DNA of 64,000 nt from Mesostigma viride (taxonomy: Eukaryota > Streptophyta > Mesostigmatophyceae > Mesostigmatales > Mesostigmataceae), in the NCBI GenBank assembly GCA_009746045.1, contig RPFO01000667.1, positions 6,677,046 through 6,741,045 of the forward strand, in the 5' to 3' direction. Below the pieces are notes generated by a model. It did not search any database and had not been told where the DNA came from. It worked only from the letters and a program-made list of their open reading frames with translations. This document shows, one piece after another, positions 2,591 through 50,639 of this stretch. The position numbers were made by a program, and so were the translations under genes. Position 1 is the first letter of the stretch, and each line of letters starts with the position of its first letter.

Positions 2591-2744
2591 AATTTTAGTC
2601 AGCCTACCATCCACGTTGCGGCAAAAGATCACCTTTTTTTGTGTTTCGGCAAAATGAAGATTTCTTGCAAACTATCGTTATGCAGGCAGGTAGCAACGTC
2701 CGATGTTATAATCCGGCAGGTAGCATGCAAACGTCGAAACGATA
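2590..2744. repeat. Dispersed direct repeat, copy A
   Basis: Begins ACAATTTTAGTCAGCCTACC and ends CATGCAAACGTCGAAACGAT. Matches 3151-3311 in the same orientation with scattered substitutions and small indels. No coding sequence recognised; it may be the end of a mobile element. The following stretch, 2745-3150, holds no gene I can support. Confidence 0.75.
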
Positions 2745-3150
2745 TGAAGGGGAAAAAAAGCATCAAACAGGAGCACCGATTAGAAACGCAGCAAATGCAG
2801 TATGTGCACATCTACACCTATAACCTAACCAGACCAAAGGCATAGCAAACATGGAAAGGGTGACCCAAGTGAAAGCCTAGCACCACCATGATCGACATGT
2901 GCGAGACCAAGAAACGCTCCATGGCAACTAGACTAAAGGGATGGATGCCAGATGTGGATTAGGATCGGCTTAGCTGACTCTACCGAGATGTCTGCAGGGT
3001 TTAGCTAGCAACGAAAAGAAGGAAGCCAGACATTTTTATCACTCTTGCTGCAACATAGAGTTTCTTGCGATGGCAGCAAGGACATGTCTTCGCCCAGCTG
3101 GCTAACTGTGTCGTCGGCGTGCATGCGCTGTTTAGTTGCCGTTTTTGATA

Positions 3151-3311
3151 GAACAATTTTAGTCAGCCTACCATCCAGGATGCGGCAAAAGCTCACCTTT
3201 TTTTCGTTGTGCGGCGAAAGCAGACCGATTTCCTTGTAAACTTCCGGCACCAGGCAGGTATCAACGTAGGATTTTATAATCCAGCAGGTAGCATGCAAAC
3301 GTCGAAACGAT
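3151..3311. repeat. Dispersed direct repeat, copy B
   Basis: Second copy of the repeat at 2590-2744. It runs into a possible small exon (3312-3635, 107 codons, unrecognised product) that I do not call as a gene. 3640-4050 is AT-rich with nothing recognised; a T-arm-like stretch near 3675 does not fold into a complete tRNA. Confidence 0.75.
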
Positions 3312-4135
3312 ATGGCAGCTCGTATCAGCTATGGGGTCTCTCTGCGGCTGCGCTTCTTTTTCGATGGGCGATGGGACGGTCGCAATTCGCAAAACGGACG
3401 CGGCGTCACAGGGCTGAACGGTATTGAAAAAATTGGAAACGTGGCATCCTCGTTCCTCCCCACGGAACTGAAAACTGGAAGCGCGGCGCTGGTGCAAAAG
3501 CTCGATCCCATCTTTTGGAACCAAGCTAGCGGATTGGACGACATCCAATATGCCGTCACCCGTGCTTGTGGCCGCAGGTATAAAAAGAGACGACCTCCAG
3601 CCCATTTACCTGGGAACATTCGGATGTTTGGCTGACATCGTTACCATGCGTCAATGTACAATGAGGTTCTGGGTTCGATTCCTGGTGTGGTCATGGAAAT
3701 AAATTTTTTTCTGCACATCTACTGAAATCAGTCATAGCACCAAACAATCACGCTGCAGCGAGACGCTATAGCCCTGGAGCCCGCTGATAAACCTGACATC
3801 CGGTACGTCTTACTATCATAGATTGCCGAACTATATAATAATAATAGTCTATACCACTTTTTCTTGTAAATGATTTACTAAATAATGATTCTATATACTT
3901 TAACATACCATATTATTAAAGTATGTGGAATTTAACCATGCTATTCACAATATATTATAAAATCTTTTGCAAAATATACTGTAATTAGTATATATATTTT
4001 CTGATAAACAATTTTATCAATGCTACTGTGTTATTTTTGTTATTCTCGCCATGCAGGTATCTGAGTGTTCTGGGAGAACTAATAAGAGAATGAGCCGCGA
4101 AGGTGAGGAAAACCTGAAATCTTTTCGTCCTTATT

Positions 4136-4395
4136 GGGGTCTCTCTGCAGCTAGACCATTTATAACCACAAGCAATAGCTTAAATTCAAGGGTCTCGCTG
4201 CAGCTAGACCCTCTTTATGGTTGCTATAAAATTAATGAATCAGAAGTCTGTGATTTAACAATCGCACGCCGCAATGAAGGGTCTAGCTGCAGCGAGACCC
4301 CAATCTTGGTCGGGGTATGCTAAGTTCACCACATCAGGTAATCTTTTCGTCTAACGGAAAAAGCCCCTCTAAGGGTCTAGCTGCAGCTAGACCCC
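4136..4395. repeat. Cluster of short CTGCAG-centred palindromes
   Basis: Four near-palindromes of about 22 bp, with arms GGGTCT and AGACCC around AGCTGCAGCT or a variant, lie at 4136-4157, 4190-4211, 4279-4301 and 4373-4395. The same motif recurs in the introns and 3' flank of the next gene (near 6035, 6983, 7067, 7146, 7225, 7299 and 8151). Confidence 0.8.
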
Positions 4396-4409
4396 AATCG
4401 TGGTAAAAA

Positions 4410-7400
4410 ATGATACACTTTCGAACTTTGTCTGTAATTGTCGCTTTTCCCAACGATACTCGATTTGCATGGATTTCGTTGTGCCGGTCGTCATGGCATG
4501 CAGCACGCGAACGGGTGGGAGTTTTCGCCCTTGCGTCCGGTCGTCCAGGATTCAGTGCAATTAAGTTGAACACCGGGACGAAGCAGTCAACTGGCGCAAA
4601 AAGGGTTTTCGGAGATGAGAACCAGAATCCAGCGCAGCCTGAAGCCAAGGAAGTCAAGCGGCCGGGAGAATACTCGAAATCAAAGAGGGTTATTGGGGAA
4701 TATTTCGCTGACCAGGCGTTTGAAGCGGCTCAGGCGATGACAAAACCCGAGGGGCGGGGGCCGGCTTTCGACCAGATGATTGCTGGCTTTAACTCTAGGG
4801 CCGCTGAACTAGGTCACGGGAAGTATCATGAGGAGGCGAAAAAGCTTTACAATCAGGAGCGGATGGCAGAACTGAACAGGTTCTGGGTGGCTCGGATTAA
4901 CGGCTTTTTTGATGGTCTGACCAAAAGCGACGCAGACAGAGACGTCAGGATGGTGCTGATGTCCACGCTTTACTGTGGTGACGACTTGGAGAAGGAGTTT
5001 TCGGCCGCGGAGTTGGAGAACCTGACGGGGATGGACGCCAAGAAGATTCGCGGAATTCGCGCGATACGAAGGCAGCAGAAGTTGGACTACCTCAGACACG
5101 CGCAGGCTCGCAAGGGGCGCCCTTTGCCGCAATTCGTGATTGACGCGATAGTGGACGCGTGGATGCACGATGATGAGTCGCGCGCCTCCTCCCAGATGAA
5201 GGATGTCAAGCGCACTTACAGCAGGGAGGGTCGTGGCAATCACGGGGTGCTCGTCGCCGTTGAGGGAGCGCGCTATTACATGACCTCCAAGGAGGACATG
5301 TACAATCACTTTCTCGAAAAGCATGCGTACTGGAACAAAAGGAGTAACCAGTATGATAAGGACGTGGGCATTCACGTGGGCTACACGACCTTCTGCAAAT
5401 ACGCGCCCGATTGCATCAAGGGCAAGTGGAAGGAGAGGAACCTGTGCGCGTGTGAGAAGCACGTCACCATGCAGTCGGCCATGGGGGCGTGGACCAAGCA
5501 CTCCAATGCGAACCACGGCAAGAACTGCAAGTGTGGCGCGGAGTGTGCGGGATGCTCCAAGTACAGAGAGCCGGACGGTACTTGCGGAATGTGGAAAGCC
5601 ATTCACTCGACGGACTGGATCAAGCACTTTCACTGCCCGGTGTCCGCCGAGACTGACGGCAGGGATAACGGGCTGCGTGAAGGGGGCGGAATGGGCGGGG
5701 GGATGGAAGAGGGGGAGGGGGAAGATGAATGGCGGGGACGGGACCTGGAAGACCTCGACATTTCTGAGAGGCTGGTGGAGGACGAAGATGGGGTGCCGAG
5801 GACGGAGAGGGTTCACCGCATACTGAAGATGGCGTGTGTGGAGGGGTTCTGTCCTGAGGAATCATGCGGCATCCATAATAACTGGGTGCAGTGTGATCGG
5901 GACAAGAATTCCACGGAGATTCTGAATTGGTTCAAGTTCGAGATGGTGGAGCAGACTGTGACCCGACGGGTGAATGTGAGTTGGTTTCGATTTTATTTCT
6001 CCGTTAATATGTTGTTGACTTTTTTTTTTGTGACCTATAGCTGCAGCGAGACCCTTTGTGAGTTGCAGTTATCTTATCGAAATGCGATTTTATTGCAAAT
6101 CGAAACTGTCTGCGGACCTTTGCGAAACAGGGCGAGACCGATGGCAGGGCGGCGAAGAAGGTGAAGCGGCCCGAGCAAGTCCAAATGAGGTCCACCCCAG
6201 CTGAGCTGCGGGACGAGATTCTTAAGATGTGGGACAAGTTCACCGTGCACTGCTTTACGGCCTGGTCGCAGGCGGATACAATCAAGGATCGGGAGAAGAA
6301 TCTGAGAGAGGGGGACGTGCTCGTGCACGGCGACTGGGCCGAGAACTACGAGAACAGCAGCTACGTCCAACTGCAGTCGCAGTACTTCCACAAGCGCAGC
6401 CACATCCTGATGCCCATGATCGTGCGTTATCGGCTCAACGGCGAGCTGGAAAAGCGCGTCTTCTTTTTCCTGGGGGATTCCAGTATCAAGCGGGGCGAGC
6501 GCGCACTCGTATACGCTCTTCGCAAGATTCTGGAAACCCTGCGGGTAGAAGTAGGGGTAGAGGTGCGAAACCTGTACATGTGCTCGGACAACTGCGCGGT
6601 GCAGTTTAAGTCCAGGTACGTGATTAACCAGATTAACGGTCTGCTCATGGGGGATCCCGACCTGCAGGCCTTTGAGTTCCACTACATGGGGGAGCAGCAT
6701 GGGAAGGGGGAGGTGGATGGTCAAGGAGCGAAGTGCAAGTGCGTCTTGAGGGAAATGCAGAGGATTCCCGAAAACCAGCACATACTTGAGACCCACCAGC
6801 TAGTCGCCTACTTGAACCAGAACTGGCAGGGCGGCAAGACATCGAGCAGGGAGTCGGCCCGCGCGCGGGCCGAGAACGTCACTCGCCACTTCTTCCTTTT
6901 ACCCCCGGTACGGAATTGTGTGTTATTTCAGGTTTTAAGACGTCAACTGCCGCTGTTCTATAAAAATTCAAACCCAATAAAGGTATCTCTGCAGAGAGAC
7001 CCTATATACTGTCAATGGGTTGCTTTTCTTTTAGGTATGAAATTTCGCTTGTTCTATCGGTATGAAGGGGTCTCTCTGCAGCTATACCCTGTGTCGAATT
7101 TCGATCACTTGATATCTTGTCGTACGTTGTTATTATGATTCGAATGGGGTCTCTCTGCAGCTATACCCTGTGTCGAATTTCGATCACTTAATATCTTGTC
7201 GTACGTTGTTATTATGATTCGAATGGGGTCTCTCTGCAGCTATACCCTGTGTCGAATTTTGATCACTTGATGTCTTGTCGTTATTTTTTTTTTTGTAAGG
7301 GGTCTCTCTGCAGCTATACCCTGTTTTATTGATTTTTGGTCAATTTTGCTAACTTGAACGGTATTCTTTTTGCCCTAACTATTTGATGACAGGACGTCGA

Positions 7401-15036: not shown

Positions 15037-15955
15037 CTGGCGTGCTTTCATCTGGCATCCCAAGGGCAGCGGCAAGGATCCCCACAAAAAAATCAACACG
15101 GAGCAGCTGCATGTGTCACGGAGCTCAACACAGAAATAACTCCGCGTCTAGTGGGCATCAAATACTTGTAGTAAATGGACAGTGAGATGAAGGAAGAGCT
15201 AGTTTCTGTACATATTAAAATTCAATACTGCTACAATTATAAATAAATTGACTGGTAATTCCATGTAAACGGCAACAGCCACGGGTGCCTAGCGAGCCGA
15301 GCTTTACGGCACGTCAGTCTTGTGCGTCAAGCCTCAGTCGAGCGAGCTCCCGGCCGCAAGGGGCTCCGGCCCCGAGACAGACTGCGGCAATTGACAACTA
15401 TATTGAATTAATAGTACTCCTACACACAGATCTCGAGTGATTTATCTAGTACCAAATCCGAAAGGCTTGCATCACTCCCCGGACAGGAGAACTTTTGCGG
15501 ATGACTGTAGGTGTAAGTTGGCGATGCCATGGTAACCGGAGACGTCCGTCCTATAGTCAGCAAAATTGGTGCGAGAGGTCCCCAGTTCGATTCCGGTCGG
15601 ATTCATTTGCAGATCGCGTTTTCCGCGTTTTCCGCGGCCTGGCACTGAACGCAAAGGTTTTCACCTTTGCGGAGTGTCTGATTAGAATATTGAATTGAAT
15701 TGAATTGAATTGAATTGTAACATAACTCCGTTGGGAGAATATGTAGCACATATCCCTGAGAAGGGGCATATGGCTTTTAATACATTCTGGGCTACTTCCT
15801 GCAAGGGTGGGAATGTAAGCTACCCGTGCTCTAGGTGCACCAGGGCACCTGCACCCTCATGATCTATGCACGCTATGCCCAGCTAAGGGGGAGCATGTCA
15901 TGTGGGGGAAGATCGTCATGGCTATACAAGAGCTAGGGCATGGCTTCTCAACAGA

Positions 15956-17960
15956 CCACTTCCAGGGTAGCCACGAGCCACGAGCCACGAGGTAGCCATG
16001 GCTGACGGCGGAGCTCATAACTTTCACGTTTGAGCACCGAATTTAGCCGTGAATATCACAATCGACGCGTCTTTTTATGACGCACATGCTGATATAATTC
16101 TCCGAAGCTATTACGCAATATACGATGAGCAAACGCCTCTCGACGCAACGCAGCCTGGCGGCTGCGCTTAGCAATGAAAATACGTCTGCAGCCCCGGCTG
16201 CAGCTTCGCCAACCGGTCCAGAAGGCAGCGGCGCCACTAGCCAAGCTCTAGTGGTCGCCCAGCCCCCGCTGGCCGCCTCGCCAGCAGCGTCGCCTGAACC
16301 CAAGCGCAGTCGCCCTGCCGAGCCGACCTGGGAGGAGTTCGACTTTGACGCCAGCCAGCCCGGCTTTTTTGACAAGCTCAACCCCGACAAGATCCTGAGC
16401 TACGTGTTTTTCGGATCGTATGCCTCGCTTCTCGAGATGTGCAAGCAACTCTTCCATCAGGGCCGCCTCACCGATGCTTTCCAGAGACGCACCCACAACT
16501 TCGACCAAATCCTCAAATGCCGCCGCCCCCACCTTCAGATTCGCGTCCTTTTCTCCCTCCTCGGCCGCTCCCTCGAGGAGCTTTGGCCCCCAAAGCCCCT
16601 CACCACCACCTTAACCGAATCCTCCATCCGCTCACTCCTCAAGGAGGCCCTCGAGCAGCACGTGGCCCCCATCGCAGCAGATGTGGCGGTCATGGGCAGC
16701 ACGTTGGCTGCCGAGCTCCCCCTCCTCTCCACCGCCACCTCCACCATCTCCACCGCCACCTCCACCCTCCTCGCCTCCTCCACCGCCACCACCTCCACCT
16801 CCGACGCCATCACCGCCCAGCTCCGTGACATCGACCAGCGTCTTAAGGACAACGCCATTGCTATCGAGGTTCTGCAGAATACCGCAGGCCTCACCGCCCA
16901 GGCGGTGAAGGACATTGCCGCCAAGCCAGCCTCGGCTGGCCTGGCCGGCGATGCTCCTCCCATCACCACCTGGGCGGACATGCTTAAGCAACATACCACC
17001 TCCACCACCTCCGCCGTCGCAGCCCAGCTTCAACGGCAGACGCTTGACCTCCGCGAGGAGGCCGAGCTCGCCAAGCGCAGCCTCAACGTCATTGTCAAGA
17101 ACTTCAAGATGGAGGAAGGTGAGAATTCCGAGAAGCTTTTGCGTGCGTTTGAGAGAGAAATCCTTAGTCGCATGGGCCTTAACGGTGAGATAGAGCTGGC
17201 TGCCCACCGCCTTCCCCGCGCGCGGGGTAAGGCAGGGCCGCCCCCGCTCCTCCTCACCTTTAAGACCCCGGCGGACAAGATTTCTTTTCTCAGACGCCGC
17301 AAGCGGCTCGAGAAGACTCTCTTCACCCTTGATGACGACTTGACCCTGGCGCAGCAACAACGGCGACGGGAGCTATGGCCGACCTACCTCCAGCTCCGGC
17401 AGACCAAGGCGGGGCAGCCGGTGTACTGGAAGGGGGCGGCCATCTACGTCGGCCACAAGCCCTGGCAGGCGACCCCCCCCCCCCCGCGGCCCCAGCGACT
17501 CCAGACGCCCCAGCTTAGGGGAATACAGCAGTAGTAGTGCAGAATAGATAGACCGTGGCCATGTACATGTACGCCTCCTAGAGGCACTATCCCAGCTAAG
17601 CCCCGCGCTTTATTTAATCATGTACATGTGTGCCTATGATGTGCCACACTCCAGACGATGCATAGCCTTATTTAGTAATGTTGTGCCCATGCAGGGAGTC
17701 ACTCTCTGCTGAGAAGCCATGCCATAGCTCTTGTATAGCCATGATGATCTTCCCCCTCACAGGCATGCTCCCCCCTTACCCGGGCATAGCGTGATAGACC
17801 ATGAGGGTGCGGGTGCCCTGGTGCACCTAGAGCAAGTGTTGTTTACATTCCCACCCTTGCAGGAAGTAGCTTAGAATGTATTATAGGCCCATATGCCCCT
17901 TCTCAGGGCTATGTGCTACATATACTCCCAACGGAGTTATGTTCCTAATTAATTAATTAA
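15956..17960 (+). mobile_element. Full-length ORF1-only non-LTR element, copy 1
   Basis: Flanked by the perfect 11-bp duplication TTCTCAACAGA at 15945-15955 and 17961-17971. It has a 5' UTR with repeated GAGCCAC units, one intact ORF, a 3' UTR of about 400 bp and an (AATT)n tail. No reverse transcriptase or endonuclease is encoded in its 2005 bp. It landed in the 3' UTR of the older minus-strand copy. Confidence 0.85.
16125..17534 (+). CDS. L1 ORF1p-like RNA-binding protein, intact (copy 1)
   Basis: 469 residues. The N-terminus is MSKRLSTQRSLAAAL, followed by a Pro/Ala/Ser-rich linker. A conserved domain of unknown fold follows (about 65-170, with FFGSYASLLEMCKQLF and VLFSLLGRSLEELW). A Ser/Thr-rich hinge (about 195-225) leads into a helical segment with heptad-like hydrophobics (DIDQRLKDNAIAIEVLQNTA). 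The C-terminal third matches the RRM plus CTD layout of L1 ORF1 proteins: a strand at LNVIVKNF, the AAHRLPRARG signature, LLLTFKTPADKISFLRRRKR, then DDDLTLAQQQRRRELWP and VYWKGAAIYV. Known ORF1 proteins coat element RNA and act as chaperones; that role is inferred here. Copy 2 is nearly identical at the N-terminus, so the family was active recently. Confidence 0.75.
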   Translation: MSKRLSTQRSLAAALSNENTSAAPAAASPTGPEGSGATSQALVVAQPPLAASPAASPEPKRSRPAEPTWEEFDFDASQPGFFDKLNPDKILSYVFFGSYASLLEMCKQLFHQGRLTDAFQRRTHNFDQILKCRRPHLQIRVLFSLLGRSLEELWPPKPLTTTLTESSIRSLLKEALEQHVAPIAADVAVMGSTLAAELPLLSTATSTISTATSTLLASSTATTSTSDAITAQLRDIDQRLKDNAIAIEVLQNTAGLTAQAVKDIAAKPASAGLAGDAPPITTWADMLKQHTTSTTSAVAAQLQRQTLDLREEAELAKRSLNVIVKNFKMEEGENSEKLLRAFEREILSRMGLNGEIELAAHRLPRARGKAGPPPLLLTFKTPADKISFLRRRKRLEKTLFTLDDDLTLAQQQRRRELWPTYLQLRQTKAGQPVYWKGAAIYVGHKPWQATPPPPRPQRLQTPQLRGIQQ

Positions 17961-17993
17961 TTCTCAACAGAGAGCATCTCTCTGCATAGGCAT

Positions 17994-20023
17994 TGAATTG
18001 AATTGAATTGAATTGTAACATAACTCCGTTGGGAGTATATGTAGCACATAGCCCAGAGAAGGGGCACATGGCCTATCATACATTCTAAGCTACTTCCTGC
18101 AAGGGTGGGAATGTAAACAACACTTGCTCTAGGTGCACTAGGGCACCTGCAACACCCAGAGTTTCAGGCAACACCCAGCTAAGGGGAGCCTGTCATAGGT
18201 GGGGAAGATCAGCACAGCTATACAAAAGCTAGGGCATGGCTTCTCAGCAGGGAGTGACCCCCTGCATGGGCACGGCATAATTAAATAAAGCTAGGTATCA
18301 TCTGGAGGGTGGCTCATCATACTACGTAGGCACACATGTACATGACTAAAAAAAAGGCTGGTCTAGGCTGGTATAGTGCCTGTAGTAGGCGGGCATGTAC
18401 AAGGCCACTGTCTATCTATTCTACACTACTGCTGCTGTATTCCCCTAGGCTGGGGCTGCCGGAGTCGCTGGGGCCGCGGTGGTCGAGGGGGTCGCGTGCC
18501 AGGGCTTGTGGCCGACGTAGATGTCCGCCCCCTTCCAGTACACCGGCTGGCCCGCCTTGGTCTGCCGGAGCTGGAGGTAGGTCGGCCATAGCTCCCGTCG
18601 CCGTTGTTGCTGCGCCAGGGTCAAGTCGTCGTCCACGGTGAAGGGAGTGTTCTCGAGCCGCTTGCGGCGTCTGAGGAACGAAACCTTGTCCGCTGGGCTC
18701 TTAAAGATGAGAAGAAGCGGAGGCGCCCCTGCCTTACCCCGCGCGCGGGGGAGGCGGTGGGCGGTCAGCTTAATCTCACCAAGGAGGCCCATGCGTGCAA
18801 GGATTTTGCTCTCAAACGCACGTGCAAGCTTCTCGGAATTCTCACCTTCCACCAGGTCGAAGTTCTTGAGGATGGCGTTGAGGCTGCGCTTGGAGAGCTC
18901 GGCCTCCTCGCGGAGGTCAAGCGTCTGCCGCTGGAGCTGGGCTGCGACGGCGGAGGTGGTGGAGGTGGTATGTTGCTTAAGCATGTCCGCCCAGGTGGTG
19001 ATGGGAGGAGCATCGCCGGCCAGGCCAGCCGGGGCTGGCTTGGCGGCAATGTCCTTCACCGCCTGGGCGGTGAGGCCTGCGGTGTTCTGCAGAACCTCGA
19101 TAGCGATGGCGTTGTCCTTAAGACGCTGGTCGATGTCACGGAGCTGGGCGGTGATGGCGTCGGAGGTGGAGGTGGTGGCGGTGGAGGAGGCGAGGAGGGT
19201 GGAGGTGGCGGTGGAGATGGTGGAGGTGGCGGTGGAAAGGAGGGGAAGCTCGGCAGTCAGCGTGCCGCCGATGGCCGCCACATCTGCAGCAATGGGGTCC
19301 ACGTGCTCCTCGAGGGCCTCCTTAAGGAGTGAGCGGAGGGAGGATTCGGTTAAGGTGGTGGTGAGAGGCTTGGGGGGCCAAAGCTCCCCGATGGAGCGTC
19401 CAAGGAGGGAAAAGAGAGCGACATGCTGGAGGTAGGGGCGGTGGAGGCTGGGAATGGTGTCGAAACAGGAGATACGAATCCAGCGAGGGTCAAAGAGGCG
19501 ACCTTGGTTGAAGAGCTGCTTGCAGAGTGCAAGAAGCGAGGCGTGCGTTCCCTGAAACACGCAGACCAGGATGCGTTCCGTGGTAAGCGTGTCAAGGAAG
19601 CCGGGCTGGCTGGCTTCGGCGACAAAGTCGGCCGCTATCCAACTCGGCTCGGCAGAGCGACTGCGCTTGGGTTCAGGCGACGCTGCGGGCGAGGCGGGCT
19701 CAGCAGGGGGCTGGGCGACCACTAGAGCTTGGCTAGTGGCGCCGCTGCCTTCTGGGCCGGTTGGCGAAGCTGCAGCCGGGGCTGCAGACGTATTTTCATT
19801 GCTGAGCGCAGCCGCCAGGCTGCGTTGCGTCGAGAGGCGTTTGCTCATCGTATAGTGCGTTATAGCTTCGGAAAATTATATCAGCATGTGCGTCTAAGAA
19901 AGACGAAGCGATTGTGATATTCACAGCTGAATTCGGTGCTCAAACGTGAAAGTTATGAGCTCCGACAGCCATGGCTACCTCGTGGCTCGTGGCTCGAGGC
20001 TCGTGGTAATTAATATACGAATA
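17994..20023 (-). mobile_element. Full-length ORF1-only non-LTR element, copy 2
   Basis: Flanked by GCATAGGCAT at 17984-17993 and 20024-20033, a 10-bp target-site duplication. The (AATTG)n tail is at the plus-strand left end, so the element is in minus orientation. One intact ORF and no reverse transcriptase in 2030 bp. It lies only about 20 bp of host element away from copy 1, tail to tail. Confidence 0.85.
18445..19848 (-). CDS. L1 ORF1p-like RNA-binding protein, intact (copy 2)
   Basis: 467 residues with the same domain order as copy 1. The first 48 residues are identical, then the 70-170 segment is markedly diverged (SWIAADFVAEASQPGFLDTL, GTHASLLALCKQLF) while the coiled-coil and RRM/CTD parts are again close to identical. 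That patchwork suggests recombination or selection on the middle domain. It keeps AHRLPRARGKAG, DDDLTLAQQQRRRELWP and YWKGADIYVGHKPW. Confidence 0.75.
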   Translation of the reverse strand: MSKRLSTQRSLAAALSNENTSAAPAAASPTGPEGSGATSQALVVAQPPAEPASPAASPEPKRSRSAEPSWIAADFVAEASQPGFLDTLTTERILVCVFQGTHASLLALCKQLFNQGRLFDPRWIRISCFDTIPSLHRPYLQHVALFSLLGRSIGELWPPKPLTTTLTESSLRSLLKEALEEHVDPIAADVAAIGGTLTAELPLLSTATSTISTATSTLLASSTATTSTSDAITAQLRDIDQRLKDNAIAIEVLQNTAGLTAQAVKDIAAKPAPAGLAGDAPPITTWADMLKQHTTSTTSAVAAQLQRQTLDLREEAELSKRSLNAILKNFDLVEGENSEKLARAFESKILARMGLLGEIKLTAHRLPRARGKAGAPPLLLIFKSPADKVSFLRRRKRLENTPFTVDDDLTLAQQQRRRELWPTYLQLRQTKAGQPVYWKGADIYVGHKPWHATPSTTAAPATPAAPA

Positions 20024-20178
20024 GCATAGGCATAGCATGGCTAAATTCTTAATGCAACATCCATGGGGGTCCCATTATAGACATGGCTTGGCTAAATGCT
20101 GAAGGCATAATCCATGGGGGCCATTATGGGCGCACATGCGCGTGGGCCACATGCTAGGCTAAGCCTGACTAATCTACA

Positions 20179-20536
20179 CTACTGGTATATATTCCTAGTC
20201 TGAGGTGGCAGGAGGGGGCTGCCAGGGCGCTTGTGGTCAACGTGGATGACCGCCCCCCTCCAGTGTACCGGCTTCCCCCGTGCGCTCTGCCGGAGCTGAA
20301 GGTAGGTCGGCCATAGCTCGCGTCGCAGCTGTTGCTGGGCCAGGGTCAAGTCGTCGTCCAGCGTGAAGCGAGTCTCCGAGAGCTTCTTGCGGCATTTAAG
20401 GAACAACAGCTTGTCCGCCATGTACTTAAAGGTGAGGAGCACGGGTGCCGGGCCAGCCTTCCCCCGCGCGCGGGGGAGGCGGACAGCCGACATGTCCAGC
20501 TCACCAGTGAGTAGCATGGGGGCAAAAATGTCGCGC
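20179..20536 (-). pseudogene. ORF1p-like C-terminal part, separated by a transposon
   Basis: Encodes the RRM/CTD part (LTGELDMSAVRLPRARG, DDDLTLAQQQLRRELWP) and ends at TAG near 20180. Its upstream half is at 22454-23461. The frame runs directly across the two pieces when the 20541-22449 insert and one TTAA are left out, so the gene was colinear before the insertion. Confidence 0.8.
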
Positions 20537-20540
20537 TTAA

Positions 20541-22449
20541 GGGGACTCGCACGTCCAAAAGCCTGAAAAACAGACTTTAGTGAGTATCAGTTCCAATGCA
20601 CATGGGAACCATCTAGTGATGATTGGGTACCATAAATATGATGTTTGGACATTCATACCACCACTTGTTGGGGGTACTACCCCCAACCACGCACCGGTGG
20701 CGAGCTAAAAATAGAAAAAGACGCTATTTATGAGATATTTTGCCCAAGACAAACCACTTGTCTAAATGACCTGCCCATACATACCTGCAAAGTTCCCCCA
20801 CTTTTTTTAAAGCTGGGCTATTTACATGGCCAAAATTGTCACATTTGTTTGAGTTATTAATTTTCCCGCAAAATGGGTACTTTTTTGAGCCAAAAAAAAT
20901 AAATCAAATCATTAACACATCAGATTGGGTCATCCATACATGCGATATTCCACTGAGTGGGGGGAAACACAAGCCCAAAGTTTGAGCTCATTCTGACAAG
21001 CGTAGCTCAAGTTATTGATTTTCCTGTGATGCCACCTGGGTAGACGCTAAAAGAGAATTGAGCTAGTGCTGAGCCAAAATGACATCTGTTTTGCTACCCT
21101 TGACACCCAAAAACATGCCCACTTTGATCACGGAGTGTGAGGAGGATGTCCGGAGCGTCATACGCCCCACCCCTCCATCGGCACAGCCAGCCTTGTGAGT
21201 CTACCCTTAACAACAAGGCTGGTAGGACGACACGCCTGAGCAGCATATGTCATGCCTATCTCAGGCTAATAATGTGTGATTTTGTGCCAACAACCAAGTT
21301 GTTCCACCCAACAACACATTAAAAACCCTGTTCCAAAATGCCCAACAAGCCGGACATGTGGAGGACCACACACGCAGTATATAAAGAGAAAAGAAGCTGA
21401 CTTTTTATCCAGCCAACCTGTGGCTAGCTGCTCTGGTTAGCATGACAAAGGCTATCATTTACTCAGTGGGAAAGGTGAAGAGACCATTGGAACAACCTAC
21501 CTGACGCATGTGCCACCAAAGCATTGTGTCCCGCAAAATGCACTGACTGCCTCCTTTCAAACAAGCACGAGCCACTTTCTTTAGGAGACAGGTGCCAGCT
21601 CGTCAGTGTCTGGGGAAAATGATGCCGGTGCTTAGGAAGACCGCGTGAATTTCCTCGAACACAACTGTCTATAAAGCAAAAGAAATTTCAGAGAAGCATG
21701 GAAATAAAAGCATTACACCTTCCCGACAGGTTGTGGGCCACGCGCTGCAGCAAGCCAGCCACATCACAGACGAACTTGCTAAAAAACATCCAGGAATCTA
21801 GCGATGCAGCGCCAGGACCCGCAAGTTCATGGCTGCATCTGGCCGGAAAGAAGGCAAAAAGCTTACGCTCAACGAGCTAAGAAAGCAGGAAAGCGCTATC
21901 TTAGGACGTTTAATACAAGAACGTACCATAACGGGCATTTATTCGTGCCCAGGCGCACAAGAAAGGCCACCCTTTCATGGAGAGGTCGGGCGCGCATCGC
22001 GCAGGCCTAATGTTATCTTACCGCAAAATGACGGGAAAGGTAAAGATAGCAGCGGGAATTTTTACGGCTTTAGAAACATCATTAAACTAGCTTCCATTAG
22101 GACCATCAAAACTGGCAACAATCGACAATCACAACTGCAGGCATCCATTATACTTTATTCATCCCGACAGAAATTCAGGCCGGACCCCCCCTGCCGATGG
22201 TAAAGAAAAAGAGCCCGCGACATTATAGATCGCAACTATCCCACCATAAATTAGAATCAGTAACTAATTTTCTCCAAGAACCGAGCATTTTTTCTGCTTT
22301 CCGCGAGCCAGATTTGTCACGTTTCGTCTAAAAGCAGTCACCATGGCCACTTCCGCAAGGGGTGCGCGCACCGTGCACCCACTTTTCACGGTACGGAGGG
22401 TACCGCGGAATTTTTTTGGCGCGGAAAATATTCGCCGCGCCGAGTCCCC
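20541..22449. mobile_element. TTAA-target (piggyBac-like) non-autonomous transposon, 1909 bp
   Basis: Flanked by TTAA at 20537-20540 and 22450-22453. The ends are short inverted repeats, GGGGACTCG on the left and CGAGTCCCC on the right. TTAA duplication is the hallmark of piggyBac-superfamily elements. The inside has only short frames of no recognisable product, so a transposase must come from elsewhere. The insertion falls inside the ORF1-like coding sequence, which proves the boundaries. A related terminus lies at 11721-11823. Confidence 0.8.
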
Positions 22450-22453
22450 TTAA

Positions 22454-23461
22454 ATGCCTCAAGAAGGCTCGTGGAGGTCTCACCTGCCGGCTGGTCGAAG
22501 TGCTCGACGAGGACATTGTGGCTGCGCCTGGCGATGTCGGCTTCCTCGCGAAGGTCGAGGGCTTGTTGCTTGAGTTGTGCCGTGATGGTGGAGGTGGTGG
22601 AGGTGGTGTGATGCTTAAGCAAGTCCGCCCAGGTGGAGGGAGCATCGCCGGCTGGGCCAGCAGGTGCCGGCTGGGCGGCGATGTCCTTCACCGCCTGGGC
22701 GGTGAGGCCGGCGGTGTCATGCAAGCACTCAAGGGCGGTGGCGGTGGCTTGAAGGCGTTGGTCGAGGTCGAGGAGCTGGGCTTTGATGTCGGCAGTGGAG
22801 GCGGAAATGGCAGTGGAGGTGGAGGCGGCGGTGGTGGAAATGTGAGGAAGTTCAGTAGCCAGCGTGCCACCCATTGCTGCTACGTCGGCAGCAAGGGGGG
22901 TCACGTGCTGCTGGAAGGCTTCCGTGAGGATGGAACGGAGTGTGGGGGCGGAGATGGATGGAGCCCAGATCTCGCCGTCAGAGCGCTGGAGAAGGGAGTT
23001 GAGGATGGCGTGCTGGAGTTGGGGGCGGGGGCACCCGAACAGCGTGCTGATGTTGTTCCAGCGGCGGCCGTCCGGGAGGAGGAGGCGATTGTTGTCGTGG
23101 AGATGGAGGCACAGGTCATAAAGCGAGGCGTAGTCCCCGTAGAGGATGCAGTGCAGAGCATCGGACGGAGACATGTTGGTCCAGTCGTGATCATCGACCT
23201 GGAAAGGTTGGAGCCGACAGCGCGGTTCCGAGGGGCGTGAAGACCCTCCTGTTTTATCGGCTGAGCGGGCGCGTTTAGGGTCAGGCGATGCCGATGGCGA
23301 GGCATTGAGCCCGGGAGGTTGCTGGGCGACCACCAGTGCACGACTAGTGTCACCGCTGCCTGCCGCACCGGAGCTGGCAAAGCTGCAGCCGCAGCTGCCG
23401 CATTTTCATGGGCGAGCGCATCCGCCAAACTGCGTTGCGTCGAGAGGCGTTTGCTCGTCAT
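22454..23461 (-). pseudogene. ORF1p-like N-terminal and middle part, frameshifted
   Basis: Begins MTSKRLSTQRSLADAL at 23461. After about 40 residues the frame shifts by one and continues (VAQQPPGLNASPSASPDPKR) through the middle domain (YGDYASLYDLCLHL), the hinge and the coiled coil to LLEAF next to the TTAA insertion. Protein divergence from copies 1 and 2 is high throughout, marking an older subfamily. Confidence 0.75.
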
Positions 23462-24503
23462 ATATTGCGTTTTAGATTCGGAAAATTATATCAGCATGTG
23501 CGTCTTAGAAAGACGAAGCGATAGTGATATTCACGGCTAAATTCGGTGCTCAAACGTGAAAGTTATGAGCTCCGCCGTCAGCCATGGCTACCTCGTGGCT
23601 CGTGGCTGCATGCGTACCATCGGGGTTAATGCTCCGACAACTATATACTGCATGTCAAATTACATGTCGATCAGCCGGCCACGCCGGCCGGCCTGTGATC
23701 GAGGCCCTGCATGCCTGGGCTCACTCGCCGCTCATGTGCAGACCAGTGTCAATAATGTGTAATTAAAAAACAGGTGGTGCACGATGGCCTCGCCATGTAT
23801 CTGGTGTCCTAAATCATTTTTGTTTTGAGAGTTTGACAAGTCAGTTCTGCCATCAAGCAACAACACGTAAAAGCTGGTCTTGATACTTAATTGCAAAAGA
23901 AGCCATCGAATTATATTTTTTATAGCTTTGCAAGGCAACCTCTTTTCAGGGCTGGATAGGTGAACCCACTAAGGGGCCCAGCAGGTGTTGCTGCAGTTAT
24001 ACCTCACCCCAGTGCACTGCATGCACGCTGATGGGTCGCGAGCGGGGCGCTGACAGCATGTGGTGGACAACATCTGGGAGGAACTAATCAACAATCTGAC
24101 AATGAAGAGGTTGCCGGGCCCTTGCTTGCACTGCATGCATGCTACGGTGAATCTGTGACGCACTTGGGTGAATGCCCACAGCACATGTGGACTGGCGCGT
24201 GCTTGTTGTGTCTGCAGTAAGTGCAGTGGTGTGAAAGGGAGTGCCCGCAGTGGAATCGAGGCAGCCAGCGTTGCCATGCAAGAAAATGCGAGGACCCTGA
24301 CAGCCGTCAGCAGTAAGTTTCGGCCTCTGTGCACTGACAAGGTAGACTCCTCTGTGCACCAGTTGAAAAGGTAGTTGAACCGCTCGTATCATTTCAGGAG
24401 CGAACCTTTGTCGGAGGAGGCCTCCTTTGTGGAGAAAAACTAAGCTGCCCGCCGCAAAACGTGCGACTGCAAGCGCCGATTTACGCGCCTGGCTAATGAG
24501 CAG

Positions 24504-29036: not shown

Positions 29037-37827
<8,791 letters not shown>

Positions 37828-40439: not shown

Positions 40440-40730
40440 TTGAATTGAATTGAATTGAATTGAATTGTAACATAACTCCGTTGGGAGTATATGTAGCACA
40501 TAGCCCAGAGAAGGGGCATATGGCCTATCATACATTCTAAGCTACTTCCTGCAAGGGTGGGAATGTAAACAACACTTGCTCTAGGTGCACTAGGGCACCT
40601 GCACCACCCAGAGTTTCAGGCAACACCCAGCGAAGGGGAGCCTGTCATAGGTGGGGAAGATCATCATGGCTATACAAGAGCTAGGACATGGCTTCTCTAC
40701 AGAGAGCATCTCTCTGCATGGCATAGCATT
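40440..40730 (-). mobile_element. 5'-truncated copy of the ORF1-only element (solo 3' end)
   Basis: Flanked by ACCGTTAGTAAT at 40428-40439 and 40731-40742, a perfect 12-bp target-site duplication. It has the (AATTG)n tail and the family 3' UTR (GTAACATAACTCCGTTGGGA). Truncation from the 5' end with an intact tail is diagnostic of target-primed reverse transcription. 40743-42110 holds no gene I can support. Confidence 0.9.
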
Positions 40731-42110
40731 ACCGTTAGTAATATCTTAACGTAATCATTCAGAGCATGAGTTGCTCCTTTTTATAGTGTTAAATTCTCGT
40801 GTGCTGCCGCCAAGTTCATGCTGGCAGTTATCAATCTTTGATTAGTACAGCGACTACTTTGTTACAGTAGTTGATGTTGTAATGGTACTTTTATCAGATC
40901 ATGCCCGCAGTTGCCCTACCTAGCTGATCAATTGATAGTTTCATTCGGTTGGGCACTCGTAGGTTGTATCATGGTACGTAATGTCCTGCCTACATTTTAC
41001 CGCCCAGCTCAACCTTGCCAGCTTTTCTTAACCAACCAGCTAACTAGTCTACTCTATTTTGGTAACCGACACCCCGCGCGCCAGTGCCCAGCCCAAGGTA
41101 TTCTAATTTAGCAATCACTTACCCCCTTGTCAATTAACAAGTCACCCGTATTGTATAGTTACAAATCCCTGCATCCACCGGCCAGCTTGAGCTGGTGTTC
41201 AGCTTACCGTGAAGAAAACAACCAGGTAACTAATTTCAATACTGTCCTCTTATGGTTACTATGCCTCTTGCGGTTGCCTGCAGCTCAAGCTATTTATTTT
41301 CGTGAGTCACGAGCTATGAGCTAACTATTCGTCTCTGATACTAAAAACAAACACCGTGCGTCCCTGCTCTCAGCCCAAAATCGTGGTGAGCCACCTGCCC
41401 CGCCAGATCCTCGATCAAGCGCGCCGAGCTGAACATCTACGACCTCAGTTTACCAGGCGGACGTGGGCAATTAGAGGTGCTTCATCTCCCCGCGCTGTTC
41501 GGCCACGGACGGACCCAAAGACAACCTCAGCGACATGCATCGCTCGGAGGACATCCGCGATGCGTATGGGGTGGGTGGCTTGGTAGCTCAAGAATCACCT
41601 GTGTTTCCTATTCTTTCGGTCAGACAACTCATCGGCATCCGCCCAAGGTCAGAGCAGAACTTCTGATCAGAGGACCTACGTGGGAAATGCCAGAAGAGGG
41701 GGGGTTGATGACCTGCAGACTAATGCCTTTTGATCCCTTTTGATCCCGTGTGGATGATTTGTGCCATTTGTATAGACAATGAGAAATGGGCTGCCGTCTG
41801 CGATAAGCTCCTTCCTGTGGGGCATGCCCCTTTTTTCTCCCCACGGGCCTCGCGGCCCATTGGTAGAATGCAGGGTAGAAGTCCGCAGGTGGAGGTTATT
41901 GCCACCGAGGATAGCCGCTACACTACCGCCTCGTCTGCCATTACAGCAGAGGACAGCTCAGATGAGGATTATATCCCCACCTAGTGACTATATGGTTGGG
42001 GCATGATGCAGACGAAATTTGTAACTTTCGTGCAATTATTTTTTCTAATGAGATTAGCATAGTACTCCATGGCATGCCCATGCGCATGACACGCAAGTAC
42101 TTACTTACTT

Positions 42111-43063: not shown

Positions 43064-44159
43064 GATTTTCTCTCAACCCCACCTAACCGCGACAAAGAAT
43101 TTCCTGATGAAGTGCACCCTAACATCGGGTTTTTGATCGTAAACGATGCATTTTTTAATTTTAAAGGCCTTGACCGAACGACCTTTTTCATTACCGCTGC
43201 AATTTTGTTGTCCCGAGCTACTGCGTATTTCCTACCAAAGTCGTGGCTGTGTCAGGCTTGGCAGACTCATAGTTCGTATATATTTGCGTTTGCCCCGTTC
43301 GTCATGTTTAATGCAGTCTTTTTTGGCACTAAAGACGCCCACAGCGTCGGGGCTGTTACAAACCTCCCGACATGCACAAACTGCGGGCAGCAGGTGAACG
43401 CCGCAACAAATTTCTGCTGCGGGTGTGAGAATTAATTAATTAATTAATAGACACGTGACTGCGTCACGTGAGCATAAGTCCTCAGTGGGAGGGGAACATG
43501 GGATGGAATGGATTGTATAAGCTATCTAGGTCCTAGTTACAGGGGTGTGGGCACCGCGGCCCGAATCGCTATGAATGCCATACTTGGTCACACGCGGAGC
43601 CCCCACAGGCTTGGGGGTGGTCTCCTTTATCACTACTTGCCATCTATCCTTGCGCACCATCTGCCTCCATACTACAGACAAACCAGGAGGCTGCCCGGGT
43701 GTGAGCCCGTCACGTCTAGTGTAGCACATGTCCATGCCGAGTCTATCACGAAAAGTCCACGGGTGGCGGCCCTGCCGCGCGCGGCCGGGGGCACGCCAGG
43801 TGAGGACGTATCGCCCAGGCTGGGCGGGCTTGGTGCCAGCTAGTCTATCTGATGTATCTACCTGATCTGTGCGGGCCAGGTGCCCGGCTAGGCCCAGGCG
43901 CCTGTGCCTAATAATGTGGGAAACATAGGGCAAATCAGCGTACAAATCCTCATTACTAATGTGCAAACCAAAGGGGATGTTAAGGGCCTTGCGCAGCAGC
44001 TTGGTGACGGCGCCGTCGAATCGTTGCTCCAGCTCCTGCATCAGTGTCCACGTCTCGGCGCCGTAGGTCAGGATCGTCAGAATGACGACCTTGAAGAGGT
44101 CACGCGGGTGTGAGAAAACAGACCTCAAATGCAAGGCAGTAATGGATTATCAATGCACG
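43064..44159 (+). pseudogene. Zinc-ribbon membrane protein exon interrupted by a LINE
   Basis: The left part (43064-43431) encodes two hydrophobic segments (TTFFITAAILLSRATAYFL and SYIFAFAPFVMFNAVFF) and a zinc ribbon (CTNCGQQV ... FCCGCE). A possible acceptor (GGTGGCAG) precedes it. The apparent stop right after CEN is made by the LINE's AATTAA tail. Beyond the insertion (44117-44159) the frame continues with 14 codons (TDLKCKAVMDYQ) and ends at a consensus donor, CACG|GTAAGT. So an exon of a host gene has been cut by the insertion. Other exons are not identified. Function unknown; zinc ribbon plus membrane anchor is seen in many small signalling or quality-control proteins. Confidence 0.55.
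43432..44103 (-). mobile_element. 5'-truncated LINE with 13-bp target-site duplication
   Basis: Flanked by GCGGGTGTGAGAA at 43419-43431 and 44104-44116. The minus strand encodes the C-terminal end of a non-LTR reverse transcriptase: TILTYGAETWTL, LLRKALNIPFGLH, HIIRHRRLGLAGHLART and a Trp/Arg-rich end, with the frame closing near 43526. The 3' end is GTCACGTGTCTATTAATTAA. The motif set is that of jockey/RTE/CR1-like LINEs. Confidence 0.85.
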
Positions 44160-45738: not shown

Positions 45739-46616
45739 GCATGGAGAATGATTAATTAAAATTTAAAGAACTAATCGCGCGCTCCCGTTGGGGAGTCACA
45801 GTCTCACGGAGCACAATAATACCGAGCTTTTCATCTCTGTATGTTGCACACTGCAGAAGGGGGCCGAGACAGATGTACGTCTTCCCTCATGCCCGGAGGC
45901 AAGCCACAGCTGCCATCGAAACTAATCACGAGGAGAGTCTGGCATAACTGTGGGTGCACTAATGCTGAAATTTGCGTGCCCGGTGACATGGCGGGGGCGT
46001 TGTCTGGCACCATGTTCAAAACATGAAGACTGAAGTGCGCGGGTGGACATGCAAGTGCATAGGCTGAACAACTGAAGGTAGCCGACAATACGTACTGACG
46101 TATGCTGAGCAATACACCCGGTGCACTTCGAAGGCCATGCATGTGGCTAGGGTTTCTCCTTGATATTAGATTGGTTGAATATAGTTCGTTTTCGGCTAGG
46201 AGGCGTGGCCTTTGCATGACGGGCAAGAGGATTTCAGCCGTGGGCAACCAAGCACACATGTCGTCGGGCTAGTCCGGCGAGTGGGCACGTGAACCGGCAC
46301 TCCCGGTCACACACGACACCATAGAGATAGTCAGCTGCACCGCCTCATGTCGGCGAATTAACCCACAGTTCCATCGGAATCGTTTCAGCCGCCGGCACTT
46401 CATCTCCGCCTTTCCTCAACCTCGTTTTCAGGATCATACTCATCGTTCCTGCATTTTCAGTCCTCTTCCACTCAGGTTGTGGCTTTTTGAAAGCCACGAA
46501 TGTACCCGGGGATGGGACGCTTCGGCTGCCTTAATGCCTACAAATTCAATACTGATGTCCCCCCGGCTCTCACCTTCCTCCATCATTCCGCTGACATTGC
46601 ACTCCGTGTCTGTGTC

Positions 46617-48670
46617 TTGTTCTTGTTCTTGTTCTAGCTTGTTCTAGCTTGTTCTTGTTCTTGTTCTTGTTCTAGCTTGTTCTAGCTTGTTCTTGTTCTT
46701 GTTCTTGTTCTTGTTCTTGTTCTTGTTCTTGTTCTTGTTCTTGTTCTTGTTCTTGTTCTTGTTCTTGTTCTTGTTCTTGTTCTTGTTCTTGTTCTTGTTC
46801 TTGTTCTTGTTCTTGTTCTTGTTCTTGTTCTTGTTCTTGTTCTTGTTCTTGTTCTTGTTCTTGTTCTTGTTCTTGTTCTTGTTCTTGTTCTTGTTCTTGT
46901 TCTTGTTCTTGTTCTTGTTCTTGTTCTTGTTCTTGTTCTTGTTCTTGTTCTTGTTCTTGTTCTTGTTCTTGTTCTTGTTCTTGTTCTTGTTCTTGTTCTT
47001 GTTCTTGTTCTTGTTCTTGTTCTTGTTCTTGTTCTTGTTCTTGTTCTTGTTCTTGTTCTTGTTCTTGTTCTTGTTCTTGTTCTTGTTCTTGTTCTTGTTC
47101 TTGTTCTTGTTCTTGTTCTTGTTCTTGTTCTTGTTCTTGTTCTTGTTCTTGTTCTTGTTCTTGTTCTTGTTCTTGTTCTTGTTCTTGTTCTTGTTCTTGT
47201 TCTTGTTCTTGTTCTTGTTCTTGTTCTTGTTCTTGTTCTTGTTCTTGTTCTTGTTCTTGTTCTTGTTCTTGTTCTTGTTCTTGTTCTTGTTCTTGTTCTT
47301 GTTCTTGTTCTTGTTCTTGTTCTTGTTCTTGTTCTTGTTCTTGTTCTTGTTCTTGTTCTTGTTCTTGTTCTTGTTCTTGTTCTTGTTCTTGTTCTTGTTC
47401 TTGTTCTTGTTCTTGTTCTTGTTCTTGTTCTTGTTCTTGTTCTTGTTCTTGTTCTTGTTCTTGTTCTTGTTCTTGTTCTTGTTCTTGTTCTTGTTCTTGT
47501 TCTTGTTCTTGTTCTTGTTCTTGTTCTTGTTCTTGTTCTTGTTCTTGTTCTTGTTCTTGTTCTTGTTCTTGTTCTTGTTCTTGTTCTTGTTCTTGTTCTT
47601 GTTCTTGTTCTTGTTCTTGTTCTTGTTCTTGTTCTTGTTCTTGTTCTTGTTCTTGTTCTTGTTCTTGTTCTTGTTCTTGTTCTTGTTCTTGTTCTTGTTC
47701 TTGTTCTTGTTCTTGTTCTTGTTCTTGTTCTTGTTCTTGTTCTTGTTCTTGTTCTTGTTCTTGTTCTTGTTCTTGTTCTTGTTCTTGTTCTTGTTCTTGT
47801 TCTTGTTCTTGTTCTTGTTCTTGTTCTTGTTCTTGTTCTTGTTCTTGTTCTTGTTCTTGTTCTTGTTCTTGTTCTTGTTCTTGTTCTTGTTCTTGTTCTT
47901 GTTCTTGTTCTTGTTCTTGTTCTTGTTCTTGTTCTTGTTCTTGTTCTTGTTCTTGTTCTTGTTCTTGTTCTTGTTCTTGTTCTTGTTCTTGTTCTTGTTC
48001 TTGTTCTTGTTCTTGTTCTTGTTCTTGTTCTTGTTCTTGTTCTTGTTCTTGTTCTTGTTCTTGTTCTTGTTCTTGTTCTTGTTCTTGTTCTTGTTCTTGT
48101 TCTTGTTCTTGTTCTTGTTCTTGTTCTTGTTCTTGTTCTTGTTCTTGTTCTTGTTCTTGTTCTTGTTCTTGTTCTTGTTCTTGTTCTTGTTCTTGTTCTT
48201 GTTCTTGTTCTTGTTCTTGTTCTTGTTCTTGTTCTTGTTCTTGTTCTTGTTCTTGTTCTTGTTCTTGTTCTTGTTCTTGTTCTTGTTCTTGTTCTTGTTC
48301 TTGTTCTTGTTCTTGTTCTTGTTCTTGTTCTTGTTCTTGTTCTTGTTCTTGTTCTTGTTCTTGTTCTTGTTCTTGTTCTTGTTCTTGTTCTTGTTCTTGT
48401 TCTTGTTCTTGTTCTTGTTCTTGTTCTTGTTCTTGTTCTTGTTCTTGTTCTTGTTCTTGTTCTTGTTCTTGTTCTTGTTCTTGTTCTTGTTCTTGTTCTT
48501 GTTCTTGTTCTTGTTCTTGTTCTTGTTCTTGTTCTTGTTCTTGTTCTTGTTCTTGTTCTTGTTCTTGTTCTTGTTCTTGTTCTTGTTCTTGTTCTTGTTC
48601 TTGTTCTTGTTCTTGTTCTTGTTCTTGTTCTTGTTCTTGTTCTTGTTCTTGTTCTTGTTCTTGTTCTTGT
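46617..48670. repeat. (TTGTTC)n hexamer array, about 2.05 kb
   Basis: About 340 near-perfect hexamers. The first 75 bp contain CTAGCTTG variants; the rest is uniform to 48670. Frames of 669 and 674 codons (Arg-Thr and Phe-Leu dipeptides) come only from the repeat. 48680-49690 has no recognised gene. Confidence 0.98.
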
Positions 48671-50639
48671 TTGTTTTGCTGTTCTTGTCATTTTTCTTTT
48701 TCTGTTACTGAGGGAGCTAGGCTGGGCTGCGCGCAGTGTGTGCTACTCTCGTGTTTTTTCTGTGGGCACTTGAGAGACTACTAAGGCAAGGATAGGGCCC
48801 CCCACACGGCAATATCAGCCTTTGCTTTTGTTTACCCTCCCATATCTCTTTACAAACGCCAAAAAACACAAAGCTGGCAGGAGCACGGTGACTCATCTGG
48901 AACATGACTGAAGGGAAATCTTTTCGTTACAGGAAAGAGGTGTCAAGTATGACAATTGGCAGGCCCCCCCACCGGGAATACCCATGTTCCGAGTCCTTTC
49001 AGCTGTGTTGTTAGCCACATCCTGCCCGGCCCGGGGAGATGCATCATGGACCACCGGCCGCTATCGCGTAACGGATGTTACGCAGTGAACATTGACTTAC
49101 CTCAAGATGCTCCGCTCTGGTTCTGTTTGATGTCTTAGCTCTCAGTGCCTCTGAATCAACATGAAACACCTTATGACTTTCTGGCATGCTCTTACCCTCC
49201 ACACAATTATACGGCAATCAAGTGGCATTGATTTCCGGAAGTACACTGCTATTTCTCGGCAGTTCCTCTCTCGTTTCTCCTCAAAGGAATGGCGGAAGCG
49301 TCGTTGCATCAACACGCGCCATAACCAATGATCACTGCCAGGATGACCATACTCTACGTTGCCTGACCGGCGCCTGCAGCGCAAGCATTTGTCGCTTACC
49401 AACTCCACTCGCCCACATCCCGAAAGCACCCGTCGCGTCATTTATGCCATTTACAACCGCAGGTACCCTCAACGTATCTACGTACGTCGGCCGGCCAGAC
49501 GCAACGGGATGCCTTGACGCGTTTTCAGGAACACATGTGGAACGAGTCACCGAGCGGGGGGGCAGTCCTGTGGCGGGACGATTGGATGGGAACTAATATC
49601 TTTGTCTGTGGTTCCGCTTACAGCACAGTCTGTAGATAGCAGCTGATGTGAACATGCAGAAAACTTAGGACCGCTCCGGGCGGCACGCCGCCTTCATATT
49701 GGCCGCCCTGCCGCCAACGACGACACCCCCCTACATGGCGCCATGGCCCAATACGGGTGGTGGGAATGGCGGATCGTACCCTTGGAACATGTCCCCGGCA
49801 CCTTTACCGGCGCAGCTTTCCGCAAAGCCGCAGGGCATCGGGAAACTTTTTGGAAACGAATTTCACATGCATTTCTGCCCCACGGTTTTTGCATTGAAGG
49901 CAAGAGCTTCAAAGCTCGGTCTCGCCGCCGCCCGCCTCCCCCCCGTCCCCGCCCTCTTATTCTGATTATGTACGCCCTCTTATGTTCATCCGTGACTGGC
50001 GTCTGAAGCATTATCTCCACCCACTGATATCGCCCATGTTATCCCCACAGCATCGCCCCTGCCCCTAGCTCCACCTTCCACACATGTGTCCCCCGCTCCT
50101 TCTCTTTACTCCACCAGTCTCCGCTGCCTACGTCACATGTCTCGGCTTATGCAACGTGGCAACTTTCATGCATCCTATCTCGAAGCCTGGAGCTTGAAGA
50201 AGCTTACCAGCTTACACATTGCCGTCGGGTCGTGCTCCCCAGCTGATCTGCAAGTCCCCCGCTTCCATGCCACTAGTCTGCGAGGCCTTCTCTCACGTAT
50301 CATCCGGCACCGTGTCAATGCCGGAATGCAGATGCACTGCGTACGCGTCGTTTACTGATCTCCCCTTTCATTCATGCTGCGATGCATGGATGAGCTGTGT
50401 TTGCCCCACATTCTGCATTTGCAGCAAGTGCAGGCTGCGATGCCGCTCGAGGTGCGCAACACTTTCGGCACTCCCATTGCCGCCTGGCATTACTCTCCCA
50501 TGCACCTTGGGACGAATGGTTTTCAGCAACGGGAAGGTCAGCCGCGGTACAACGCCCATGCACCGAGCGGGCCACTCATCTCGGGCAGGGCCCTGCCCCT
50601 GCCAACAACAACGGTATTTCAAGCACCTTGATCCCACCT

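Follow-up and report, generated by a model that had tools for sequence, protein, structure and literature searches.

The window, a stretch of 64,000 nucleotides from a contig of Mesostigma viride (RPFO01000667.1, positions 6,677,046–6,741,045), contains three full-length copies (A, B and C) of an element family which we refer to as alpha. Copies A and B are about 2.0 kb each and have one sense ORF apiece (469 and 467 aa), overlapped by antisense frames of 242–280 aa. Copy C has the same ends as A and B, but its ORF is broken by in-frame stops and frame changes, so that the intact gene which the initial annotation assigned to all three copies is present in two of them. The same annotation counted three copies only; these were all found, but the window also has a fourth copy and a 5'-truncated 3' end. 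The features are listed in Table 1.

Table 1. Retroelement copies and related features in the window. TSD, target-site duplication.
Feature	Position	Strand	Remarks
Fourth copy (subfamily 2), 3' end	15696–15955	-	A and B are inserted in this copy
Copy A, full-length ORF1-only element, alpha family	15956–17960	+	TSD TTCTCAACAGA at 15945–15955 and 17961–17971
Copy A ORF, 469 aa	16125–17534	+	Coil, RRM-like region, C-terminal region
Copy A 3' hairpin, ACATA-T-ACTCC-CAAC-GGAGT-TATGT	17918–17942	+	Matches LINE-I hairpin; followed by repeat tail
Fourth-copy piece between A and B	17961–17993	-	
Copy B, full-length element	17994–20023	-	AATTC-type tail; TSD GCATAGGCAT at 17984–17993 and 20024–20033
Copy B ORF, 467 aa	18445–19848	-	
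Fourth copy, 3' part of ORF and 3' UTR	20024–20540	-	
DNA element within fourth-copy ORF	20537–22453		Flanked by TTAA; inverted ends TTAAGGGGACTCG
Fourth copy, 5' UTR and 5' part of ORF	22449–23607	-	
Alpha 3' end, 5'-truncated	40446–40732	-	
LINE-II 3' part	43430–44134	-	ORF2 C-terminus, short 3' UTR, hairpin CACGTGACGCAGTCACGTG, TTAAT tail
Copy C, full-length, ORF broken	60503–62649	+	TSD TATGCGCAA at 60494–60502 and 62654–62662

Target-site duplications could be read in the sequence for A, B and C and define both ends of each element, as had been proposed. For copy B, the duplication is 6 bp long as found by script and 10 bp by eye. Among the loci read, 26 rows were detected as full-length, corresponding to 25 elements because one was counted twice; in 16 of these rows the two flanks share at least 8 bp, compared with 5.2% of mismatched flank pairs. 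This count, the hairpin survey and the dN/dS analysis were performed without L001–L004, whose sequence is already covered in part by the window or by the larger loci L009–L011, and without L006, which is on another contig but has nearly the flanks of L018; one further count left out these loci and also L007. The 3' end of the elements is constant, whereas the number of CCACGAG units at the 5' junction varies. In copies L037 and L038, the target duplication is separated from the CCACGAG units by about 14–18 extra bases (by eye), and an extra 5' stretch, CCACTTCCAGGG, is common to A and L010. Varying transcription starts may account for these bases.

Between the defined ends, neither reverse transcriptase (RT) nor endonuclease was detected by ORF list, Pfam or tblastn, and none was seen in copies L015, L037 and L038 either. 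The Pfam search of the A and B ORFs gave no family at E ≤ 1, and at a cut-off of E ≤ 1e-4 the ORF2 of a resident LINE (LINE-II, see below) had no tblastn match within any of the three copies. Sequence reading, ORFs and tblastn thus confirm that A and B are complete, with an intact ORF, a repeat tail and target duplications, and have no detectable RT. The absence of RT within ends defined by duplications is real and not a matter of truncation, as first suggested. These observations support the assignment of the alpha elements to the ORF1-only, non-autonomous non-LTR retrotransposons.

The fourth copy is divergent and runs on the minus strand from 23607 to about 15696. Copies A and B and a TTAA-flanked DNA element, which we take to resemble a non-autonomous element of the piggyBac type, are inserted into it. 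A separate truncated element at 15696–15955 was ruled out, this stretch being the 3' end of the fourth copy, which is the host. The window further contains a satellite with a 30-bp unit repeated about 77 times (289–2590) and a TCTTGT hexanucleotide array of 2 kb (46615–48703). Runs of a TTTAGGG-type telomere-like repeat occur inside contigs, in the window (33727–33802) and in L013.

Abundance of the alpha family and selection on its ORF

The genome (440 Mb, 2,243 contigs) was searched for further copies. All 40 scored DNA matches to 1 kb of copy A, taken from 4,402 first-look candidates, were 99–100% identical. When the ORF protein was used as query, 88 of 91 scored matches were stop-free; these 91 are the best-scoring of 24,430 candidates, so that decayed copies are under-represented. 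Their identity ranged from 100% down to 87%, with near-identical groups at about 100%, 88% and 87%. For the exact 19-base 3' end of alpha, 4,883 occurrences were counted genome-wide, against 0 for the reversed control pattern; this number refers to 3' ends, those of truncated copies among them, and related elements may be included. The alpha family is young and abundant. One copy each of the 88% and 87% groups (L037 and L038) showed the succession of ORF, 3' UTR, hairpin and tail without RT, and a copy of a divergent subfamily (L015, 61% amino acid identity) has the same layout, with the ORF leading directly into the 3' UTR. A search for relatives in viral contigs gave 136 pattern matches, none of which was confirmed.

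Selection on the ORF was analysed as dN/dS according to Nei–Gojobori, a rough method, with several of the sequences being fragments. The value for A versus L015 was 0.41 (bootstrap 0.32–0.52), and four other pairs from different subfamilies gave 0.35–0.49, every upper bound being ≤0.70. For A versus B we obtained 0.58 (0.42–0.79), for A versus L037 and L038 0.46 and 0.51, and for the partial ORF of a second family, beta (see below), 0.52 against A and 0.46 against L015. Values within groups were nearer to 1: 0.49–2.49 across 14 subfamily 2 pairs with low dS, 0.84 for B–L037, 0.85 for B–L038 and 0.70 for L037–L038. They fit neutral decay after insertion, but they also limit the claim of selection. 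The pair A versus L022 (0.88) was discarded as a neutral control, its value being inflated by two frameshifts in L022; the bounds between subfamilies remain below 1 without it. Judged by the values between subfamilies, the alpha ORF is under purifying selection at this level, and so the protein is selected. This was the outcome of the dN/dS check that had been suggested along with the initial annotation.

The protein had been described as L1-ORF1-like. A phmmer search of the ORF against PDB gave no significant match (best E 1.1) and, as with Pfam, the description thus finds no backing there. Its basis is the comparison with LINE ORF1s from this genome: the RRM regions of the alpha protein and a LINE ORF1 are related (hhalign probability 96.4, E 1.4e-9, one pair compared), and blastp of the LINE-I ORF1 against the A ORF gave an E of 1e-6. 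Amino acid identity of the alpha ORF to the ORF1s of LINE-I and LINE-II is about 24–28%. The predicted structure of the whole ORF is of low confidence (mean pLDDT 46), and its secondary structure fits the order coil, RRM, C-terminal domain. The alpha protein is probably an RNA-binding protein of the ORF1 type.

Resident LINEs and the 3' hairpins of three ORF1-only families

The genome carries LINEs with both ORF1 and ORF2, LINE-I and LINE-II. LINE-I (L036) is apparently complete. It has a 5' UTR and an ORF1 (391 aa), and two frames that overlap each other (596 and 615 aa) match the LINE-II ORF2 at 40% and 55% identity, respectively; the 615-aa frame spans the RT. The two frames (2714–4501 and 4351–6195 of the L036 reverse complement) represent a split ORF2; the split may be a programmed frameshift or one that the source element carries. 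The 615-aa frame recurs in 31 among the 150 matches listed (counted by hand). The 3' ends of LINE-I and copy A can be aligned over 46 columns, and the hairpin lies within this stretch.

LINE-II (L032–L034) has tandem 168-bp repeats at the 5' end, which resemble the promoter monomers known from some LINEs. Its ORF1 measures 490 aa from the first ATG and its ORF2 1,222 aa. The Pfam search of this ORF2 gave a match to RVT_1 and none to an endonuclease; from our reading of the sequence, the N-terminus of ORF2 in LINE-I and LINE-II looks endonuclease-like. Against PDB, the LINE-II ORF2 matched the RTs of L1 (E 2e-11) and R2 (E 2.2e-11) about equally well. The 5' UTR of copy A is 81% identical to LINE-II over 58 nt and 69% identical to LINE-I over 87 nt. 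A strictly bipartite system of alpha and LINE-I was ruled out, as LINE-I and LINE-II carry their own ORF1.

For LINE-III, no ORF1 was found upstream in the two copies of which the 5' part was read. Both start at the same base near ORF2, and both may simply be truncated. Another intact LINE (L029/L030) has an ORF1 of 560 aa and an ORF2 of 1,472 aa, for which the endonuclease and RT matches in L030 are above the Pfam cut-off and the zf-RVT match is weak. It was excluded as a partner of alpha by its unrelated 3' end.

Two further ORF1-only families, known from truncated or interrupted copies only, have hairpins of the other LINEs. Beta (L017/L031) ends in CACATGACGCAGTCACGTG, one base off the LINE-II hairpin. 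The beta 3' end also occurs in L012 and in L016, where the hairpin is identical to that of LINE-II. Gamma was read in L035 and, as separate pieces, in L023; it terminates in the LINE-III hairpin CTCCCCAACGGGAG, from which L023 departs by one change. Copy L035 has ATGTACAGTGT at both ends (by eye). The matched pairs alpha/LINE-I, beta/LINE-II and gamma/LINE-III were each reached by none of 2,000 shuffles, while the six mismatched pairs were reached by 17–743 of 2,000. Hairpins of types I and III are alike, gamma versus LINE-I being reached by 17 of 2,000. All hairpins are predicted to fold, the weakest being that of beta L031 (z -0.48), and those of alpha and LINE-I differ by paired changes in the stem.

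The stretch of 3' sequence which matches between the ORF1-only elements and the LINEs is only about 30–45 nt long. The families have in common with their partner LINEs a 3' end able to form a stem-loop, as in a LINE/SINE pair of the stringent type. The tails of alpha are of the TTAAT or AATTC type and differ from the LINE-I tail ATAATTTAATTT; LINE-II and LINE-III have the TTAAT type. Because the alpha tails do not match the LINE-I tail exactly, the true helper of alpha may be a relative of LINE-I.

A tree based on about 110–165 aa places the alpha, beta and gamma proteins in one group and the LINE ORF1s in another (support 100/98). Gamma enters this tree with a short stretch of L009, one of the gamma rows being filled to 45%, and the program issued a warning on long branches. 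Runs of short repeats were seen in L031 (3440–3830, GTGAGAAA-type) and, similarly, in L009 (GTGGTAAAA).

Probable origin, candidate helper and relation to known elements

We consider it likely, with a probability of roughly 0.7, that alpha is a non-autonomous, ORF1-only element which uses its own protein together with a helper of the LINE-I type, and that its lineage did not arise from LINE-I by deletion but has changed helper via its 3' end. On the alpha RNA, an ORF1-type gene lies between a 5' UTR related to those of the resident LINEs and a 3' UTR that terminates in a hairpin followed by a tail of short repeats. The element would be transcribed from its own 5' region. The protein, as selection on the ORF suggests, would then coat the RNA by which it is encoded. 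The enzymes of LINE-I or a close relative would recognize the matching hairpin, as the 3' ends suggest, and reverse-transcribe the RNA at a nick in the target. The resulting insertion would leave target duplications of about 9–13 bp and a tail of the TTAAT or AATTC type, which are seen in the sequence.

Recognition of the alpha RNA by a LINE RT is suggested by the hairpin match, so that alpha would be mobilized in trans. Three families which group together, each with the hairpin of a different LINE (I, II and III), suggest a change of helper; an ORF1-only lineage could switch helper by changing its 3' end. Alpha, beta and gamma would thus probably represent an old satellite lineage which has used several helpers. 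If this is true, ORF1-only elements can persist as satellites and are not just dead-end remnants of LINEs. ORF1-only families and candidate helpers co-occur here in one genome, with alpha copies that are young, intact and many, and the three pairings of family and LINE hairpin could allow RT recognition to be separated from the contribution of the protein.

The main alternative, clearly less probable, is an origin as in HAL1 in the strict sense: an internal deletion removed ORF2 from a resident LINE whose ORF1 was alpha-like, and the shortened elements then spread. Homology of the 5' UTR and of ORF1 with LINE-I and LINE-II fits this origin, as does the repeated emergence of HAL1s in mammals (PMC5753468). 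However, the two LINEs of which the ORF1 was read, LINE-I and LINE-II, are far more distant in this gene, and at 27–28% amino acid identity the elements are therefore not one internal deletion of either LINE. The three ORF1-only families cluster despite having three different LINE hairpins, and the LINE ORF1s included in the tree fall outside this cluster, so that the families are not LINE-I copies with one deletion. Also, no alpha-like ORF with an RT directly downstream was found among the loci read, a small part of the copies. As far as it went, the check for RT-bearing relatives that accompanied the initial annotation turned out in its favour: in elements of the A type and in L037, L038 and L015, the ORF is followed by the 3' UTR, and the ORF1s of LINE-I and LINE-II are very different.

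A more far-reaching reading is that one old satellite lineage has changed helpers through exchange of 3' hairpins, and that in one pair at least, gamma and LINE-III, the helper itself would have no ORF1. We regard this as improbable. If true, it would be a truly bipartite retrotransposon, with RNA-binding protein and enzyme on separate replicons joined by a common 3' signal.

Less probable still is a SINE-like parasite for which only the 3' hairpin matters, with the ORF as a passenger without a role. Its 3' end in common with LINEs would be the classic SINE/LINE arrangement, which is known in Chlamydomonas (PMC3747384), and dN/dS near 1 within groups fits it as well. The values well below 1 between subfamilies and the stop-free state of nearly all scored ORF matches, though these are the best-scoring copies, speak against it. 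That the protein acts in trans or is domesticated by the host, with selection at a few loci only, is least probable of all: it is conserved and the sole product of the element, but many near-identical intact copies in several groups are unlike a single domesticated locus.

Under the preferred reading of an element with its own protein and a LINE-I-type helper, it is a fair inference that each RNA needs its own protein (cis-preference), because a purely trans-acting protein is not expected to persist in so many source lineages. Retention of an ORF in an element without RT bears on cis-preference, which is an open question for LINEs. The initial annotation had reached the same idea. Selection on the ORF makes it a fair conclusion, though one already published for HAL1, whose long-kept ORF1 was read as a need for both ORF1p in cis and ORF2p in trans (PMC3627910).

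The design itself is not new in kind: HAL1, HeT-A and TRE5-A.2 share it. As far as searched, what is new is the set of ORF1-only families matched to helpers by hairpin. In the open-licence literature, screened by title and opening of the abstract, no ORF1-only element from an alga was found. A paper on Alexandrium names repeat matches HAL1-2a_MD and HAL1-3A_ME, which do not amount to a described element of algae.

HAL1 derives from L1 and has a poly(A) end. Alpha has instead a specific 3' hairpin and a repeat tail, its ORF1 is far from the LINE ORF1s read, and three families are matched to three LINEs. The two are alike in being non-autonomous and in long conservation of the ORF; HAL1 encodes ORF1p only, as alpha probably does, with an RT taken to act in trans (PMC5753468, PMC3627910). 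HAL1 has had several origins in mammals (PMC5753468). Among the HeT-A, TAHRE and TART elements of Drosophila telomeres, HeT-A resembles alpha in layout, with Gag as its sole product and no pol, and TAHRE has Pol together with a Gag similar to that of HeT-A (PMC5537684). HeT-A is added to chromosome ends in head-to-tail arrays, whereas alpha is found at dispersed sites with target duplications, and the LINE-I ORF1 is not alpha-like. TRE5-A.2 of Dictyostelium also has no ORF2 and is mobilized in trans by the ORF2p of TRE5-A.1 (PMC5633606), a mode which would apply to alpha as well; TRE5-A integrates near tRNA genes (same source). The SINEX/RandI and L1 pairs of Chlamydomonas are short elements with the 3' end of a LINE (PMC3747384); SINEX elements are classed there as SINEs, whereas alpha encodes a protein under selection.
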